Positions 17,401 through 28,031 of a stretch of 64,000 nucleotides of DNA are shown here, in pieces. Made by a program: the position numbers and the translations under genes. Source of the stretch: Rhodothermia bacterium. Its GTDB lineage: Bacteria > Bacteroidota > Rhodothermia > Balneolales > Balneolaceae. Where the stretch lies: the NCBI GenBank assembly GCA_030427885.1, contig JAUICM010000002.1, forward strand, positions 496,001 through 560,000, written 5' to 3'. Positions within the stretch are counted from its first letter, which is position 1. Every line of letters begins with the position of its first letter. The notes beneath the pieces are model-generated. The model saw nothing but the letters and a program-made list of their open reading frames with translations, ran no database searches and was not told the DNA's origin.

Positions 17401-18378
17401 TTATTTCCAGTGTTCCTCAGCGATTGCCTCTTTGCTGAGTTCATTTGTTAGGTAGTGTTCAGCATCCAAAGCTGCTTTACAACCTGTACCAGCAGCTGTA
17501 ATAGCCTGTCGATATACTGAATCCATCGCATCTCCACAGGCAAAGATACCTGGCAGATCCGTTTTCGTAGACTGGCCTTCTGTCTTGATATAACCGACAT
17601 CATCCATCGACAGTACACCTTTGAAGAGATCCGTGTTTGGTTTATGACCGATAGCAACAAACACCCCGGTCACATCATCCAAAGTAGTGATAGCTCCGGT
17701 GTTTCTGTTTTTGATGTTAACTCCTTCCACAACCATATCTCCCAGGACTTCGTCCACTTCGCTATCCCACATAAACTCTATCTTCTCATTTTCGAAAGCA
17801 CGGGTTTGCATTGCTTTGGAAGCACGTAGTTCATCACGGCGATGAACAACGGTTACTTTGCTGGCAAATTTGGTAAGAAAGGTAGCTTCTTCCATAGCTG
17901 TGTCTCCACCGCCAACTATGATCACATGCTGGTTTCGAAAAAATGCACCATCACAGGTTGCACAAGCTGAAACACCTTTACCCCTGAGTTTTGTCTCGCT
18001 CTCTAAACCGAGCCACATTGCTGAAGCACCTGTTGATATAATAATCGTATGTGACTTGATCTCCGTTTTCTCATCCACAGTAATCTTATACGGGCGGCTT
18101 TCAAAATCAATATCGGTCACATAGCCATACCGACAATCAGCACCAAATTTGGTTGCTTGTTCCCGGAAATCCTGCATCATCTGAGGGCCCATTACTCCAT
18201 CAGGGTAGCCAGGGAAGTTTTCCACATCAGTTGTAGTCATAAGCTGACCACCCGGCTCCGGCCCTTCAAACACGATAGGTTCCAGATCGGCTCGTGCTGC
18301 ATAAAGAGCTGCAGTTAAGCCAGCTGGTCCACTTCCGATAATTACGACTTTGAATGTTTTTCCTGCGATATCGTCCAT
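17401..18378 (-). CDS. trxB: Thioredoxin-disulfide reductase
   Basis: This flavoenzyme reduces thioredoxin with NADPH. FAD site IIGSGPAGLTAALYAA (residues 13-28), redox pair C139ATC142 in the ACATCDG context, NADPH site IVGGGDTAMEEA with HRRDELRASK, and the C-terminal FAD motif GIFACGDAMD. Length 325 is typical of low-Mr TrxB. It is monocistronic with its own terminator. Confidence 0.95.
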   Translation of the reverse strand: MDDIAGKTFKVVIIGSGPAGLTAALYAARADLEPIVFEGPEPGGQLMTTTDVENFPGYPDGVMGPQMMQDFREQATKFGADCRYGYVTDIDFESRPYKITVDEKTEIKSHTIIISTGASAMWLGLESETKLRGKGVSACATCDGAFFRNQHVIIVGGGDTAMEEATFLTKFASKVTVVHRRDELRASKAMQTRAFENEKIEFMWDSEVDEVLGDMVVEGVNIKNRNTGAITTLDDVTGVFVAIGHKPNTDLFKGVLSMDDVGYIKTEGQSTKTDLPGIFACGDAMDSVYRQAITAAGTGCKAALDAEHYLTNELSKEAIAEEHWK

Positions 18379-18480: not shown

Positions 18481-18933
18481 CTATTCACAGTGAGGAACAA
18501 ATGAATCAGAAGTTTGTGCTACTTTAGAATAATTTGAAGTACTGCCTTCCCCATACTTCCTTTGAACTTTCAGATCATTGTCTTCCAGTACCATACTTAC
18601 CGTGTATTTACTTGTTAGTTGGGCCTGGTAAAAGAAAAAGATGTAATCATCACCTCTTCTGTAATCCAGAATACTTTGGTCAATCTCAACCTCATAGCAA
18701 TCTGATTCGTTATTAAACTCATCACCCCTGTAATCAAATTGATCTACTCCATCAGATTTAACTTCTATGTAGATAATATTTCCTTTATCAGATATTAACT
18801 TCCACATCCCTCTCAGCTCTACCGGAATAATTGAGTTATCAACTTCTTCGGGTCCGGTAGCAGATTTTTTACAACCACTTGCAACAAAAAGTACCAGAAT
18901 AATTATTAACCATGTTTTATTGTATTCTCTCAT
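18481..18933 (-). CDS. Lipoprotein with one WE-QGN/SC module
   Basis: A 150-residue lipoprotein (lipobox ASGC, Cys21). After the linker SATGPEEVDN it holds one copy of the module repeated in the next two genes: GMWKL near residue 42, the strand IIYIEV, C79 in SDCYE, the strand LKVQRKYG, and C149 in VPHCE at the end. The cysteine spacing (70) equals that of the other copies. It lies 41 bases after the three-module gene on the same strand. Strand-rich architecture suggests a lipocalin-like or META-like small barrel; function is unknown. Confidence 0.7.
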   Translation of the reverse strand: MREYNKTWLIIILVLFVASGCKKSATGPEEVDNSIIPVELRGMWKLISDKGNIIYIEVKSDGVDQFDYRGDEFNNESDCYEVEIDQSILDYRRGDDYIFFFYQAQLTSKYTVSMVLEDNDLKVQRKYGEGSTSNYSKVAQTSDSFVPHCE

Positions 18934-18974
18934 TTTGACTTACACTAATTTTAATTTGGAAAGTGAGATTTCAC

Positions 18975-20075
18975 TTATTCAGATATTTCGCAGACATCGT
19001 CTAATACGCCTTCCTCTATTTGTACACTAAAAAACGTCTGTACCATATCACCATCATCAATTATCAGAAAACCATTCTCGAAATCAAAGTGAACGGCAAC
19101 TTCTAATGTTTCACTAGTTAAAGGGTCGAAAAGGGTAAAATATTGTTCCTCTACAGAAATTATATTCAAAGTCTTGATATCAAAACAATCTTCTTCGGCC
19201 GGTTGAGCAGGATCACCTTTATAGAAATAAAACACAAAATGACCCGGCTCTATTTCCAAATATATATGTGGAGCTGAGTCATCTCCGTCAGTTTGTAATT
19301 GCCATTGCCCTTCTATGTTGAAGTCTTCCGGAGTGCATAGCTGATCAATATCATCAATAGATCCGGAGCTTGGTGAAAAATACTCCGTTATATCCTCTCC
19401 TTGTTCTTTGCGTTCAACCTTAAGTAGTCCATCTTCTATTGAAATCACAATACGTTGAGTACCTTTTGAGGACATCGGATCATTATCGGTAAGAGTAAAA
19501 ACAGATCCCTGTACACTTATAACGTCCAGTTTTGAGATGAAATAACAATCAATTGAACTTATATAATCAGCCACTCTGATCGAATCGGCAGAAATTTCCA
19601 CTATCGTCTTTCCATCGCCGTTATCCATTTCCCAGGCACCATAAAGATCTTCAGGAGTAGTGCATTCCGGTCCTATCGCGCTTTGGTCAGCTGTGCTCAG
19701 GAAATATGATTTAAGATGGTCCTGTGTGTTCTCAAGTTCACGTACATCCAACCGGTCGTCATTTCTGGATAAAGCTAAGGTTTTGGATTCATCTTCCCCT
19801 TCCTTTCTTATGGTATAGAATCCTAATTCGTCCACCGAAATCACCTCAAAATGATCAATAGAAAAACAATTATCGGATTTTTTATAGGTATAGAAATGAA
19901 CTTCTGTGGGTGATACCAGAAGATAATCTGTACGTCCTCCGGCTGTTCTTTCCCAAAACCCTTCCACCTGACCTCTTAAATCTCCAGTGAGATCAACATC
20001 GTCGCAGGACACAGATGATACCAATACCAAACCGAGTGCGAAAAAAAGATATGAGCAATACTTCAACAACATCAT
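18975..20075 (-). CDS. Lipoprotein with three WE-QGN/SC modules
   Basis: A 366-residue lipoprotein (lipobox SVSC, Cys24). Three modules follow: about residues 38-138, 146-247 and 256-362. Each starts with a G-x-W pair (GFWER, GAWEM, GQWQL) and has one mid cysteine in an [ED/DN/ID]C[FY] context (C70, C177, C297). A second cysteine closes each module (C138, C247, C362), giving spacings of 68, 70 and 65. The first module shares LDVRELENTQDHL with LHVRDIEKTQEEL in the first module of the ten-module protein, so the two genes arose by duplication. No catalytic motif was seen. Confidence 0.7.
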   Translation of the reverse strand: MMLLKYCSYLFFALGLVLVSSVSCDDVDLTGDLRGQVEGFWERTAGGRTDYLLVSPTEVHFYTYKKSDNCFSIDHFEVISVDELGFYTIRKEGEDESKTLALSRNDDRLDVRELENTQDHLKSYFLSTADQSAIGPECTTPEDLYGAWEMDNGDGKTIVEISADSIRVADYISSIDCYFISKLDVISVQGSVFTLTDNDPMSSKGTQRIVISIEDGLLKVERKEQGEDITEYFSPSSGSIDDIDQLCTPEDFNIEGQWQLQTDGDDSAPHIYLEIEPGHFVFYFYKGDPAQPAEEDCFDIKTLNIISVEEQYFTLFDPLTSETLEVAVHFDFENGFLIIDDGDMVQTFFSVQIEEGVLDDVCEISE

Positions 20076-20118
20076 CCTAAAACTGCTTTTTCACAGTATA
20101 CATCATAGCAACAAAAAA

Positions 20119-20136
20119 TGCCTCAAATTCTTTTTT
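20119..20136 (-). repeat. Leader repeat, copy 1 (upstream of the three-module gene)
   Basis: TGCCTCAAATTCTTTTTT differs by one base from 23772-23789 upstream of the ten-module gene. This copy also encodes the last codons and stop (KRI, TGA) of the ten-module protein, marking the joint of the gene duplication. Confidence 0.6.
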
Positions 20137-23100
20137 GAATGGAGTTAGCGCACTCCGGTATCAAAGTAGAAAAAGTAGTATCACTGGATTTAAATTTTGT
20201 ACTAACCTGAACCCCATCAATTTCCCTTTCAACCTCGAGTGTATTTCCTTTCAAAGTAATCAGGAAAATCCGGGTTTGAGAATTTTCATCCATTAACTCA
20301 AAAACATCATTATCGATGCCAATAACCTCAAATATTTCCGTATCGAAACATCCCTCGCCTTCTGAGATCCATGTTGCACTGGATTCATCTATACTGAAAT
20401 ACACTTTTGGCTTCTTAGCCTGAGAAAATTCCCAGTTGCCAGCAAATTCCAGTTCTATGGGATTTTCATTCCCTGGTTCCTCATCTTCCAGATCGGTACA
20501 ATCCGGAACCAAGCTACTAAGATCCTTACTACTTGATTTAAGCTTTATTGTATCAATTGAATTTTCAAATAACAGGCTTATACTACTTCCCTGTTTCTCT
20601 ACAGTAGCTTTGATGTCCTGCCCCCACTCATCGGTTACCGTAATAACATTTCCAGTGATTTCCTTTATCCCGAAAATGGTTGTGCTAAAACAAGAGAGTC
20701 CTTCATTTTCCTCGATCATCTTTAATTCAACCGCATCAAATACCACATACAATTTGGCTTTATTCCCCTGAAAGGTTTCCCATTTGCCTGTAATGTCTAC
20801 ATTTTCTTCCGGTTCATTAACTTCAGGTTTTTCGATGATCTCTACCGGGAAATCATCACAATCTGGTGCCAGAAAACTGAGATCCTGGTTCGAAGACTTG
20901 AATTTTATTGCGTCAGAATCCCCCTCAATTAAAATTGTAATATTATTTCCTTGCGTTGAAAATATAAAACTCAGTGAATTCCCGTTCTCATCTTCTGTTA
21001 CAAACGAATCACCCGAACGCTCAAGAATCATATAATTCGCCGAACTATAGCAGCCCTTTACCTCATCTTCTTTAGCCAAAATAATATCGTTCTCGCTTAC
21101 CTGTATATAGATCTTCGCAATATTTCCCTGTGCTGTTTCCCAGGTTCCCGAATAATCTTCCAGAGGTTCCGGCACTGGTTCAGGTTCAGGTTCCGGATCC
21201 TCAATTACTACATCATTACAATCCGGTGTGAGCGAGTTAAGGTTTTTCTTACTGGACTTGAACTTTATCATATCCGATTCTCCGGGGAAAAGAGCTGAAA
21301 TATTATTTCCCTGTTTAGAAAAAGTGATCACACCCACGTTTCCATCTGCATCCTCAACATCGAAAATATCACCTGTACGGCCCGTGATCTCATAATACAT
21401 TGAGGCGAAACAACTTCCCGATTCATCTTCCTTTACAAGCACAATATCGTCAGTACTAACCTGTACATAGATCTTTGCAATATTTCCCTGTGCCGTTTCC
21501 CAGGTTCCTGAATAATCTTCCAGCGGTTCAGGCTCAGGATCCTCAACTACCACATCCTCACAATCAGGCGTAAGTGAGCTTAGATCCGTATTACTGGGTT
21601 TTAGCTTTAAACTGCCCGACTCACCCTCAAATTGAATTGTGATGTTTTTTCCCTGCATCTCCACCGTAAAAACAGATTGTTGTTCTTCCGCGTCTTCGAT
21701 GGTAAATGATACCCCATCCACATTAACTATTGTGAATTGATCTGAGATATAGCAGGATCCCGCTTCATTCTCTTTAATAAACATGATCTCAGAATCAGAA
21801 ACATCCAAATACTGTTTTGTAACGTTTCCCTGAAAGGTCTCCCATTTTCCGGTTATATCTAATCCTTCTACGGGGTCTGTACCAGGCTCAGGATCTGTTT
21901 CATCATCACATTCCGGAGTAAGTTCTCCGGGTTTTGTATCGGAGGGTTTATACTTTGTTGTCTTTAGTTCTCCTCCAGAATTACGGCTGATCTCTATATT
22001 TTTGCCCTGCTTTTTGATCGTTATCTCTTCTGTTTCTCCTGATACATGCTCTAACTCAAAAACTCCACCAGTACTATTCTGAATTTGAGTTCCTGTAAAT
22101 ATATAGCAGCTATTTGATTCTACCTGACTTACAAAACTGACCGTATTATTAGTAATGAATACAAATTCTCTGGCCACATTCCCCTGAAAAGTTTCCCAGC
22201 CACCCGCAAAGCTCACTTCTTCATTTGGTTCCGGATCTGTAATATCAGTACCACATACAGGAGTAAGATCATCGATCTTCTTCTCTGATGCCTTATACCG
22301 TTTCTTGACCTTATTTCCATCTGGATCAGAAATGATCTCCAGTTGTTTACCACGTTGTATTATATCAACAGGAACCTGATCTCCGTTTTTGTCAACCAGC
22401 ATAACTCTTTTGTCAGAAGCAGCGGAGATTTCAAAAACTGAAGTTAAGATATAGCATTCCGATTCCTCATTGAACCCGACTGTTTTGATACTATCGGAGC
22501 TTATGAATATAAACTCCAATTCTTTATTTCCCAGGCTGGTCTCCCAGGCACCCTGAACTTTTCCAATAATTGATTCTTCTGTGGGCTCCGGTTCGGGTTC
22601 GCCCTCACACTCAGGACTCAGCTTTGGAACATCTTCTTTACTGGATTTAAATCTTGTAGTACTGTTTCCATCATCTACAGAAATATTATTTCCCTGTATA
22701 TTGATTATCAGCTCCAGTGACTCTTCTGTATCCTGATCTACTACTTTAAATACATTCCCTTCCGCATTCTCAATATAGAATCGCTTTGTACTATAACAGG
22801 AAGTTTCTTCATTAAATGTTTTATTTAAAAGTGAATCATTTGATACTGAAAGATATTCTTTTGTCTTGTTTCCCTGGATACTTTCCCAATTCCCTAAAAG
22901 TTTAATAATACCGGAATCAGGTATTTCTGCAGAGCCCTCACAAACCGGACTGAATGTATCGAAATCCTCGTTCGAGCTCTTAAACTTTTGAAGCTCTGCA
23001 ACACCGCTCACAACTTCCTCAATTTCGATCGTATTACCCTGCCTCGTAATGATCAACTCCTGACTTTCTTCTGATTCACTATCGGCTGATGATATAGTAA

Positions 23101-23716
23101 ATACATTTCCATCCTTTTCCAGGATATGAGAACTCAAACTTATAAAGCAAGAAGTGGTCTCATTAAAGGTGATCTTTGTTAATTTCTCTTCGGTTATTCG
23201 TATGAATAACTTTTTTGTATTCCCCTGAGCAGACTCCCAGTCCCCAAAAACTTCTTCATTATTCCCGTTATCATTTCCATTATTTGAAGCTTTATCTGCA
23301 CATCCGATCTGGAGAGAATCTGCACTTATAGCCGCTCTGTCATATACATCCAGTTCCTCTTGTGTTTTTTCAATATCCCGGACATGAAGTTTATTCTCAT
23401 TTTCAGAGATAGCAAGAACCATTTCTTTTCCTGACTTAGCTTCTTCCAGAAAATAAAAGCCACCATCTTCTACTCTATTCAACTTATACTTTGCAGGCGT
23501 TACACATTCACGAACGGTGTGATAGTTGTAGAAATTCAGGCTATCAGATGAAATGTACAGGTAGGTAGTGAATACACCATTTCCATCAAGTTTCCATGTA
23601 CCATCAACCCCGGCATCATCGACACCACTAAGATTGATCCCTTCACAAGAAACAGAACCCAGAATAACTAAGAAGACGAACCCAGAAAACCATGGGTTGC
23701 TGAATAATGTTTTCAT
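20123..23716 (-). CDS. Lipoprotein with ten tandem WE-QGN/SC modules
   Basis: A 1197-residue lipoprotein (lipobox SVSC, Cys24). It contains ten modules at about residues 38-139, 158-259, 275-370, 388-488, 504-603, 622-719, 736-833, 856-953, 976-1073 and 1091-1189. The consensus is GxWExxQGNxxKxY near the start, NExxSC[YF] in the middle, [KQ]QGNNI, then KFKSSxxDLxxLxPxC at the end. Cysteine pairs are 71/139, 190/259, 307/370, 421/488, 537/603, 655/719, 769/833, 889/953, 1009/1073 and 1123/1189; one disulfide per module is likely. Linkers are Glu/Pro/Asp-rich (EDPEPEPEPVPEP). This looks like a long surface-exposed stalk or adhesin; I do not recognise the family. Confidence 0.75.
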   Translation of the reverse strand: MKTLFSNPWFSGFVFLVILGSVSCEGINLSGVDDAGVDGTWKLDGNGVFTTYLYISSDSLNFYNYHTVRECVTPAKYKLNRVEDGGFYFLEEAKSGKEMVLAISENENKLHVRDIEKTQEELDVYDRAAISADSLQIGCADKASNNGNDNGNNEEVFGDWESAQGNTKKLFIRITEEKLTKITFNETTSCFISLSSHILEKDGNVFTISSADSESEESQELIITRQGNTIEIEEVVSGVAELQKFKSSNEDFDTFSPVCEGSAEIPDSGIIKLLGNWESIQGNKTKEYLSVSNDSLLNKTFNEETSCYSTKRFYIENAEGNVFKVVDQDTEESLELIINIQGNNISVDDGNSTTRFKSSKEDVPKLSPECEGEPEPEPTEESIIGKVQGAWETSLGNKELEFIFISSDSIKTVGFNEESECYILTSVFEISAASDKRVMLVDKNGDQVPVDIIQRGKQLEIISDPDGNKVKKRYKASEKKIDDLTPVCGTDITDPEPNEEVSFAGGWETFQGNVAREFVFITNNTVSFVSQVESNSCYIFTGTQIQNSTGGVFELEHVSGETEEITIKKQGKNIEISRNSGGELKTTKYKPSDTKPGELTPECDDETDPEPGTDPVEGLDITGKWETFQGNVTKQYLDVSDSEIMFIKENEAGSCYISDQFTIVNVDGVSFTIEDAEEQQSVFTVEMQGKNITIQFEGESGSLKLKPSNTDLSSLTPDCEDVVVEDPEPEPLEDYSGTWETAQGNIAKIYVQVSTDDIVLVKEDESGSCFASMYYEITGRTGDIFDVEDADGNVGVITFSKQGNNISALFPGESDMIKFKSSKKNLNSLTPDCNDVVIEDPEPEPEPVPEPLEDYSGTWETAQGNIAKIYIQVSENDIILAKEDEVKGCYSSANYMILERSGDSFVTEDENGNSLSFIFSTQGNNITILIEGDSDAIKFKSSNQDLSFLAPDCDDFPVEIIEKPEVNEPEENVDITGKWETFQGNKAKLYVVFDAVELKMIEENEGLSCFSTTIFGIKEITGNVITVTDEWGQDIKATVEKQGSSISLLFENSIDTIKLKSSSKDLSSLVPDCTDLEDEEPGNENPIELEFAGNWEFSQAKKPKVYFSIDESSATWISEGEGCFDTEIFEVIGIDNDVFELMDENSQTRIFLITLKGNTLEVEREIDGVQVSTKFKSSDTTFSTLIPECANSIQKRI
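20858..21511 (-). repeat. Modules 7 and 8, a recent tandem duplication
   Basis: Modules 7 (21511-21218) and 8 (21151-20858) share SGTWETAQGNIAKIY without change and the preceding linker PLEDY. The DNA around both linkers is also close, for example CCTGAATAATCTTCCAG with one substitution. The repeat period is 120 codons. Other modules are far more diverged. Confidence 0.7.
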
Positions 23717-23771
23717 CTTAAAAACCGAGCAACCATTATTTTATATTAAGATAATTTAATAAAACTAAAAT

Positions 23772-23789
23772 TGCTTCAAATTCTTTTTT
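23772..23789 (-). repeat. Leader repeat, copy 2 (upstream of the ten-module gene)
   Basis: TGCTTCAAATTCTTTTTT, 17 of 18 bases identical to 20119-20136, about 55 bases before the ATG at 23716. It fits a duplicated 5' leader. Confidence 0.6.
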
Positions 23790-23958
23790 TTATGGCTTTA
23801 CCCCGATCGTGCTTCACTATTTTCCTGAAATTCATCATTACTTCATACTCAGGAAAGACATTTATAAACATTTGAAATGTCATCTACTACCAAAAAAGCG
23901 CTCCCAGTTTTATTTGTCTAAATGATGTATTTCATTAAGTTGCCTGAAACTTAAAGTT

Positions 23959-23969: not shown

Positions 23970-25091
23970 TTGATTATTGCTGTTCCAAAAGAAACTGAAG
24001 AACACGAGCAGCGGGTAGCAATCACCCCAGATGTTGCTGCCCAGCTTATTAAAAAAGAACTCGAGGTCTGGATCGAAAAAGATGCTGGACTTAAATCCAA
24101 TTTCCTTGATGCACATTATAAAGAAGCCGGAGCTAAAATTGTAGCAGACCGCAAAGCTCTTTTTGAAGGGGCCGATGTTCTGCTTGCGGTTCAAACTCCT
24201 TCTGCTGAGGAATTAGGATACTTAAGAAAGAACGCAACTCTTGTATGCTTCTTATGGGCTTTACAACATCCCGATCTGGTTGATACCCTGAAAGAACTTG
24301 GTATTTCTGCCTTGGGAATGGATGCCATTCCACGTATTTCAAGAGCACAAAATATGGATGCTTTATCCTCAATGAGTTCCATTGCGGGATATAAAGCTTC
24401 ACTGATTGCTGCCAACAATCTTGACAAATACTTCCCCATGATGATGACTGCGGCAGGCACCATCCCCCCGTCAAAAGCCTTGATACTTGGTGCCGGTGTA
24501 GCGGGACTGCAGGCTATTGCTACCTGTCGTAAACTTGGGGCTGTTGTTGAGGCCTACGATGTTCGTCCTGTAGTTAAAGAACAGGTTGAAAGTCTCGGGG
24601 CTAAATTTGTTGAAGTACCACTTGAGGAATCTGATACAGAAACCAAAGGTGGTTATGCCAAAGAACTTTCTAAAGACAGCCAGGAACGACAAAAGCATGT
24701 AGTGCACGAACATGTCAAAAAATCTGATATTGTAATCACAACCGCACTTATTCCCGGACGGCCGGCTCCTCTTCTTGTAACAAAAGAGATGGTTGCAGAT
24801 ATGAAGCCCGGATCTGTGATCGTTGATCTAGCTGCTGAAAATGGTGGAAACTGTGAGCTTACTGAAGCGGGTAAAACCGTTGTAGTAAATGAGGTTAAGA
24901 TCATTGGTCCGGTTAATCTGCCCAGCCAGCTTTCGAACCATGCCAGTTTGCTGTATGCTAAGAATATGATGAATCTGCTTAATCTTCTTATCAAGGAAGG
25001 CACCCTGAATTTCGACTTTGAAGACGAAATTCTGTTGAATACCACAATTACTCATAACGGGGAAGTTGTTTCACCAATGATCAAAAACTGA
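23970..25091 (+). CDS. pntAA: NAD(P) transhydrogenase alpha subunit, part 1 (NAD-binding)
   Basis: Domain I of the proton-translocating transhydrogenase that passes hydride between NADH and NADP+. The N-terminal signature is VPKETEEHEQRVAITPD, the NAD-binding site is ILGAGVAGLQAIATCRKLGA, and the RQD-loop region follows MDAIPRISRAQNMDALSS. The start is TTG with an ideal SD. The gene lacks the membrane helices of a fused PntA; they are in the next gene. It is first of three genes. Confidence 0.93.
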   Translation: MIIAVPKETEEHEQRVAITPDVAAQLIKKELEVWIEKDAGLKSNFLDAHYKEAGAKIVADRKALFEGADVLLAVQTPSAEELGYLRKNATLVCFLWALQHPDLVDTLKELGISALGMDAIPRISRAQNMDALSSMSSIAGYKASLIAANNLDKYFPMMMTAAGTIPPSKALILGAGVAGLQAIATCRKLGAVVEAYDVRPVVKEQVESLGAKFVEVPLEESDTETKGGYAKELSKDSQERQKHVVHEHVKKSDIVITTALIPGRPAPLLVTKEMVADMKPGSVIVDLAAENGGNCELTEAGKTVVVNEVKIIGPVNLPSQLSNHASLLYAKNMMNLLNLLIKEGTLNFDFEDEILLNTTITHNGEVVSPMIKN

Positions 25092-26934: not shown

Positions 26935-27435
26935 ATGTTCAAATCCAGACATTTTTTAATTCTCCTGATCTGCTCCGCATTCACTTTATTTTCAGCCTGT
27001 AATAAAGACTGCGAAAAAGAACCTGATCTCGATGTAGACCAGGAACAACTCGCTAAAGACATCAAAGCTATTGATAGCTTTCTAGAGGACAACGGTATCA
27101 CGGCCGAGAAACATCCATCGGGCATCCGTTATATAATAAAGAGAGAAGGTGATGGCGCACGTCCAGCCGTTTGCAATAATATTTATTTAACTTATGAAGG
27201 TAAATTGCTAAACGATCAGAGAACCATCTTTGACAGTGAAGCCGACCCTGTTGGGTTTAACCTTGGAGGATTGATTACAGGCTGGCAGATCGGTGTTCCG
27301 CTTATCCAAGAAAATGGCCGCATTACCCTGTATATACCTTCCGTTTATGGATATGGGACTTCTGGGTCAGAGTCTGGAAATGTTCCTCCTAATACTAACC
27401 TTGAATTTGAGATCGTACTTTTTCAGGTGAACTAA
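26935..27435 (+). CDS. FKBP-type peptidyl-prolyl isomerase lipoprotein
   Basis: A 166-residue lipoprotein (lipobox FSAC, Cys22) whose last 100 residues are an FKBP fold: IYLTYEGKLL, IFDSEADPVGFNLGG, ITGWQIGVPLI and PPNTNLEFEIVLF. The key Trp of the active site is kept, as is YGYG near the end. It assists proline isomerisation in the cell envelope. Two further cysteines (in NKDCE and AVCNN) are also present in the next gene's product, suggesting a conserved disulfide from linker to domain. Confidence 0.85.
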   Translation: MFKSRHFLILLICSAFTLFSACNKDCEKEPDLDVDQEQLAKDIKAIDSFLEDNGITAEKHPSGIRYIIKREGDGARPAVCNNIYLTYEGKLLNDQRTIFDSEADPVGFNLGGLITGWQIGVPLIQENGRITLYIPSVYGYGTSGSESGNVPPNTNLEFEIVLFQVN

Positions 27436-27503
27436 CAGAATATTCTACCTTTTTGAATGTTATATTCCGAGATGCTTTAGCATTTCCGAATAATCCCCTT
27501 TGC

Positions 27504-28031
27504 ATGAATAAACATATACTTTCTTTTACCGTTGTTATACTCACTGTTCTGATCATAACCGTTGGTTGTGAAGAAAAAGCACCGTGTGAATTAGACCTGA
27601 ATCCATCTGTACGACAAACTCAATTCCGGGCTGATCAGGATTCTATCACCCAGTATCTTTCTGATAATGGTATTGATGCACAAACTCATGAAAAAGGTAT
27701 GCGTTATGTGATTCATGATAAAGGTTCCGGAAGTACCGTTTATCCCTGTAGTGCGATCATCGTTACTTTTGAAACCCGTCTTATGGCTTCAGGTGCTATT
27801 GTTGATAGTGCATCCACACCAGTTGGTTACAATCTTCCGCAAATGCCTTATGCATGGCAGTTTATTATGCCTCTAATAAAAGAAGGTGGTAGTGTTACAA
27901 TGTACGCACCTTCTGATTATGGATATTCGGATTATGAGTTTCCTAATATTCCAATCAACTCGAATCTGATCATAGATGTTGAATTGGTTGAAACTTATAC
28001 TCCAAGAAACGGTTCCTTTTACGCCAGATAG
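27504..28031 (+). CDS. Second FKBP-type isomerase lipoprotein
   Basis: Start taken at ATG 27504, not 27453, because it gives a lipoprotein signal (MNKHILSFTVVILTVLIITV then GC). FKBP elements are IIVTFETRLMASG, IVDSASTPVGYNLPQ, YAWQFIMPLIKEGG and INSNLIIDVELVE. It is a diverged paralogue of the gene before it, 68 bases downstream. Active-site residues are less well kept, so isomerase activity is less sure. The two cysteines APCE and YPCS match those in its neighbour. Confidence 0.8.
   Translation: MNKHILSFTVVILTVLIITVGCEEKAPCELDLNPSVRQTQFRADQDSITQYLSDNGIDAQTHEKGMRYVIHDKGSGSTVYPCSAIIVTFETRLMASGAIVDSASTPVGYNLPQMPYAWQFIMPLIKEGGSVTMYAPSDYGYSDYEFPNIPINSNLIIDVELVETYTPRNGSFYAR

Follow-up and report, generated by a model that had tools for sequence, protein, structure and literature searches.

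What does a bacterium gain from setting a small, cysteine-paired module once, three times and ten times into three neighboring lipoproteins? The question is raised by a 64,000-nucleotide stretch of a Rhodothermia bacterium of the family Balneolaceae (assembly GCA_030427885.1, contig JAUICM010000002.1, positions 496,001 to 560,000; the window hereafter), in which three co-directional lipoprotein genes on the minus strand, at 18481–23716, together encode 14 such modules (1 + 3 + 10). With moderate confidence, we read their products as lipid-anchored strings of calycin barrels that were duplicated and enlarged in this lineage and that may bind multivalently, either in the envelope or extracellularly.

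The first gene of the run (20123–23716), delimited from its open reading frame (ORF) and the reading of its modules, encodes a 1197-residue lipoprotein of ten modules with a mature mass of 130 kDa and an isoelectric point (pI) of 4.2. It is followed by genes for a 366-residue, three-module lipoprotein (18975–20075), probably orthologous to the ancestral gene, and for a 150-residue lipoprotein with a single module (18481–18933). Each protein begins with a signal peptide that ends at its lipobox cysteine; the remainder consists of modules about 100 residues long. All three mature forms are acidic (pI 4.1–4.5). All modules are read from the minus strand. In the 1197-residue protein, they occupy 23300–23614 (module 1, of the type found first in orthologs), 22940–23257 (module 2), 22607–22906 (module 3), 22253–22564 (module 4), 21908–22216 (module 5), 21560–21862 (module 6), 21218–21520 (module 7, the module used for structure prediction), 20858–21160 (module 8), 20498–20800 (module 9), and 20150–20452 (module 10). 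Those of the 366-residue protein lie at 19662–19973, 19335–19652, and 18990–19322 (modules 1 to 3, the last belonging to the most divergent class), and the module of the 150-residue protein lies at 18487–18822.

The modules share a strict sequence signature. All 14 open with G-x-W[EKQ] and contain exactly two cysteines, spaced by 63–70 residues; outside the modules, the only cysteines are those of the lipoboxes and one in the signal peptide of the 366-residue protein. A preliminary description of the locus, made from the DNA alone, had reported this signature, the one-three-ten arrangement in adjacent lipoproteins, and an origin in Balneolota, all of which are borne out—the arrangement by ORFs, profiles, and a whole-genome search. 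Its finer points hold in part. Tyrosine or phenylalanine follows the first cysteine in 13 modules, whereas module 1 of the 1197-residue protein has CV; the proposed QGN...KSS consensus describes modules 2–10 of that protein but not the others; and the Glu/Pro-rich linkers are a property of the 1197-residue protein, whose linkers are acidic throughout and rich in these residues from the third onward, whereas the 366-residue protein has tight linkers of 9–10 residues. Module 10 runs to the C terminus of the 1197-residue protein, which has no distinct head domain.

Pairwise identity between modules ranges from 8 to 60%. Leave-one-out profiles recover every one of them (E 3e-6 to 1e-28, scaled to a 4000-protein search), and a profile built from the 1197-residue protein alone finds three of the four remaining modules (E 2e-7 to 4e-14), reaching module 3 of the 366-residue protein only at E 0.024; these matches argue that the likeness is not due to chance. 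The search of the whole genome (4.1 Mb) returns exactly these 14 modules and none elsewhere. In an alignment of 25 modules that includes relatives, the tryptophan and both cysteines are invariant, whereas the glycine is lost in a few relatives, and each of the 35 modules compared has exactly two cysteines.

We predicted the structure of module 7 of the 1197-residue protein with AlphaFold2, using the alignment of the 14 modules. The single-module prediction, a step proposed in the preliminary description, yields an eight-stranded, lipocalin-like barrel (predicted local distance difference test, pLDDT, 91.5) with strands at residues 5–8, 17–21, 25–32, 37–49, 52–57, 62–70, 73–77, and 85–89 and a short C-terminal helix of only three residues (94–96). 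The same eight-strand pattern appears in each module of a model of the 366-residue protein, and all 14 modules show conserved hydrophobic residues at alternating positions within the strands. Lipocalin-type chains dominate the structural matches of module 7 in both Foldseek and VIA-align: The top Foldseek match is the pneumococcal lipocalin lipoprotein SP_0198 (5cyb, 3ge2; E 4e-3), and VIA-align gives Z 9.1 to Bacteroides lipocalin-like proteins (root-mean-square deviation 3.1–3.4 over 91–92 residues), Z 8.5 to nitrophorin 4, and Z 8.3 to YedD (2.4 over 84). Of the two module cysteines, one opens the fourth strand and the other closely follows the terminal helix; a disulfide from strand D to the C terminus is common in lipocalins. 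The G-x-W motif (SCR1) sits on strand A of the model, where it constitutes the calycin signature (PMC3367933). Taken together, motif, barrel, and placement of the cysteines are consistent with a minimal calycin, and each module is accordingly modeled as an eight-stranded lipocalin-like barrel, probably stapled by one disulfide between the start of strand D and the C terminus.

Several observations weigh against this assignment and its functional extension. No Foldseek match of the module 7 model falls under E 0.001, and structural Z scores of 8–9 are near the level reached by common arrangements. The three-module model has moderate confidence (pLDDT 77), and its structural matches are weak, with Z no higher than 6.3. 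The second element of the calycin signature, a strand-H Arg/Lys that packs on the tryptophan, is present only as lysine, at position 88 in 9 of 14 modules, and the others differ. A deep ligand pocket cannot be taken for granted either, because the barrel is short and has about two conserved core residues per strand, and neither sequence nor structure matches point to a particular ligand or partner. Nor does any Pfam or NCBIfam model, including those of known lipocalin families, exceed its cut-off for these modules in profile searches.

The matches that do arise are all below threshold. The closest Pfam family is DUF3471, a domain of unknown function that we take to be a lipocalin-like end domain; it covers part of module 8 (E 4e-5, 24.3 bits against a cut-off of 29.3). 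Lipocalin_4 touches two modules at E 0.01–0.2, module 7 scoring 13.1 bits against 22.4, and the NCBIfam YedD equivalog, with a cut-off of 169 bits, scores 12 in the 150-residue protein only. A direct search of the whole protein against the sequences of solved structures gave no match; the 25-module profile gave weak matches to fatty-acid-binding proteins (best E 0.0095), which point in the right direction and are not significant. The META domain (PF03724) was also considered and rejected, since a search of the complete genome at E 0.001 did not find it. The module had been called undescribed, and this holds for database families but not for the fold, which is lipocalin-like by prediction.

Comparison with known barrels leads to the same distinction. 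SP_0198 of Streptococcus pneumoniae likewise presents a barrel of about 90 residues in a lipoprotein, but it is a single barrel in the solved construct, shares 14–16% identity, and comes from a Gram-positive organism. The Bacteroides proteins with the highest VIA-align Z (4gzv, 4i95, 4iab), considered with Lipocalin_4, are longer chains of about 133 residues with no significant sequence match. The C-terminal lipocalin domain of Pab87, linked to the module by the sub-threshold DUF3471 match and a structural match to 2qmi, ends a serine hydrolase. Escherichia coli LptY (YedD) is a lipoprotein whose small eight-stranded lipocalin-like barrel comes with a C-terminal helix and a conserved pair of cysteines that could form a disulfide (PMC12644819). 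It differs in that it has only one barrel, its first cysteine lies on strand 3 rather than at the start of strand 4, and its sequence match stays under the cut-off. Bacterial structural matches are mostly single barrels, some of them domains of larger proteins, and a literature search limited to open papers found no bacterial multi-lipocalin or ten-barrel string. What is new, if the models are right, is not the fold, which is familiar, but a family of minimal barrels and its extreme ten-barrel architecture.

How this architecture arose can be approached through its genomic position. Downstream of the three genes, on the same strand, lies a trxB-like thioredoxin reductase gene (17401–18378) that is kept beside the lipoprotein gene in relatives; on the other side, a pntA-like gene for the alpha subunit of NAD(P) transhydrogenase (23970–25091, plus strand) is divergently oriented. 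A survey of 129 genomes of the order found the family in 17, all Balneolaceae, and in 16 of these it occupies the interval between pntA and trxB, in the orientation of trxB. An alignment search names the Balneolaceae metagenome-assembled genomes HXMU1428-16 and ih13 as relatives; the 1197-residue protein as query found no relative in the named genomes. The content of the slot varies: one gene with three modules in genus g6, one gene with two in g5 and g11, one gene with one in two g17 genomes, and 10 + 3 + 1 modules here, so that Balneolaceae relatives carry one to three modules per gene. The site is empty in many other genera and in the exceptional genome G011, whose one-module gene lies elsewhere. 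In another g17 genome (G063, L080:1224–2778), the slot holds three one-module lipoprotein genes in a row, indicating gene multiplication there and domain multiplication here. In genome G023 (L031:8245–10246), about 2 kb with an extra ORF separates the lipoprotein gene from pntA, where relatives have a short gap.

The products of the three-module genes share about 35% identity with the 366-residue protein, their ortholog here. In a module tree, the first modules of the 366- and 1197-residue proteins group with the first modules of orthologs (support 91/85), the third modules form a class of their own (100/99), and the module of the 150-residue protein groups with the G011 gene (98/95). The tree leaves the origin of modules 2–10 unplaced, and scores favor first- and second-module types over the third. 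The copies are old, to judge from their divergence: The closest pair is 62% identical in DNA, and synonymous sites between modules are saturated. A 38-base leader repeat upstream of the 1197-residue gene (23763–23800, minus strand) has a second, 82% similar copy upstream of the 366-residue gene (20110–20147, minus strand), overlapping the end of the 1197-residue gene; it is likely a trace of gene duplication, and as a leader common to both genes, it may also be a shared promoter or regulatory element. We propose that an ancestral lipoprotein gene of two or three barrels between pntA and trxB would have been duplicated together with its leader in this lineage, the order of duplications being conjectural, and that one duplicate would have grown to ten barrels spaced by acidic, proline-rich linkers.

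The module also occurs beyond this family of genomes. Other families of the class have one-module lipoproteins with the same cysteine pair, and in the flanks read these do not adjoin trxB. Genome G204, from a different class of the phylum, encodes (at L108:167–2208) a three-module, 353-residue lipoprotein beside a 272-residue one with a related module, adjoining genes that resemble recF and DUF721. This is apparently an independent tandem multiplication, so such multiplication probably occurred more than once. Within our window, the gaps along the run through to trxB measure 47, 41, and 102 bases, and trxB is followed by a terminator-like hairpin, an arrangement compatible with a putative single transcript. 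Farther along, at 26935–28031 on the plus strand, two adjoining lipoprotein genes resemble FKBP-type peptidyl-prolyl isomerases, the first of them syntenic in relatives.

What, then, might the barrels do? In known relatives, barrels of this kind either bind hydrophobic ligands or attach to partner proteins, as LptY does to LptD (PMC12644819). The three products would be envelope lipoproteins displaying one, three, or ten barrels after a lipid anchor, and many divergent barrels on flexible acidic linkers favor multivalent binding, in which slightly different barrels would engage a ligand or partner, whether within the envelope or extracellular. Such a layout would make the protein a likely bacterial counterpart of the insect polycalins. 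A periplasm-facing role akin to that of LptY/YedD, in which a barrel docks on and steadies an envelope machine such as LptD or BamA, with additional barrels either tolerated or serving more than one machine, appears rather unlikely to us. LptY, which binds the LptD beta-taco, does share the barrel, size, lipid anchor, and cysteine pair (PMC12644819), and YedD is among the structural matches, but the YedD sequence score is negligible, LptY acts as one barrel, and both a ten-barrel string and a family absent from most Balneolaceae are a poor fit for a core assembly factor. We are similarly doubtful that the barrels are rigid beads of a passive spacer or stalk that lifts or spaces something without binding it. 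Acidic Pro/Glu linkers, an N-terminal anchor, and many copies would suit a stalk, but no head domain caps the free C terminus, the three-barrel relative, with its tight linkers, is not stalk-shaped, and first and third modules are maintained as distinct classes.

The preliminary description had instead suggested a surface family under expansion, perhaps an adhesin or phase-variable coat. The family has indeed grown in this lineage relative to the one to three modules per gene of its relatives, but nothing points to ongoing expansion: Near-identical tandem copies are lacking, and the modules have diverged as far as noted above. Phase variation fares no better: The locus holds no tandem array of near-identical copies, a repeat finder detected no simple-sequence tract of note, and no variation mechanism was seen. 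The large copy-number difference from relatives favors an adhesin or coat, as do acidic residues after the anchored cysteine (CEGINL and CDDVDL here, CEDLDL and CDEVDL in orthologs) that resemble the Bacteroidota surface-lipoprotein signal, in which a polar residue or lysine and then at least two acidic residues follow directly after Cys+1 (PMC5080379). The residues do not match the published K-(D/E)2 or SDDDD motif; surface exposure is only suggested, a guess from these positions, and an actively expanding adhesin or coat seems improbable. A redox device, in which the cysteine pairs buffer or relay disulfides in connection with trxB and pntA, would account for two cysteines in every module and for the conserved thioredoxin reductase and transhydrogenase neighbors. 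We give it very little credence because the cysteines look structural, 63–70 residues apart at positions typical of a lipocalin disulfide rather than in a CxxC motif; moreover, TrxB and the NADPH of the transhydrogenase are cytoplasmic, and single-module relatives in other families of the class lie away from trxB in the flanks covered.

A more specific form of the multivalent-binding reading goes further with the analogy to the polycalin of Lepidoptera (pentadecacalin, chlorophyllide-binding protein), in which about 15 lipocalin-like domains stand in tandem on one membrane-associated chain (PMC10145054). The likeness is one of architecture only: ten predicted lipocalin-like modules and a lipobox in the 1197-residue protein. 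By this analogy, the 1197-residue protein could be a true bacterial polycalin whose ten surface-exposed, ligand-binding calyces hold a hydrophobic molecule or a partner at high avidity, a proposal we consider unlikely as it stands.

A family of minimal barrels, lipocalin-like and cysteine-paired, that was unlisted is thereby recognized in Balneolota and the wider Bacteroidota, and the analysis indicates that bacteria can string ten such predicted barrels into one lipoprotein. If true, a bacterial polycalin would be a parallel to the polycalins of the moth midgut. Because one genomic slot holds 0, 1, 2, 3, or 14 barrels in related genera, it offers a natural series for how domain number grows and for what multivalent lipocalins do.

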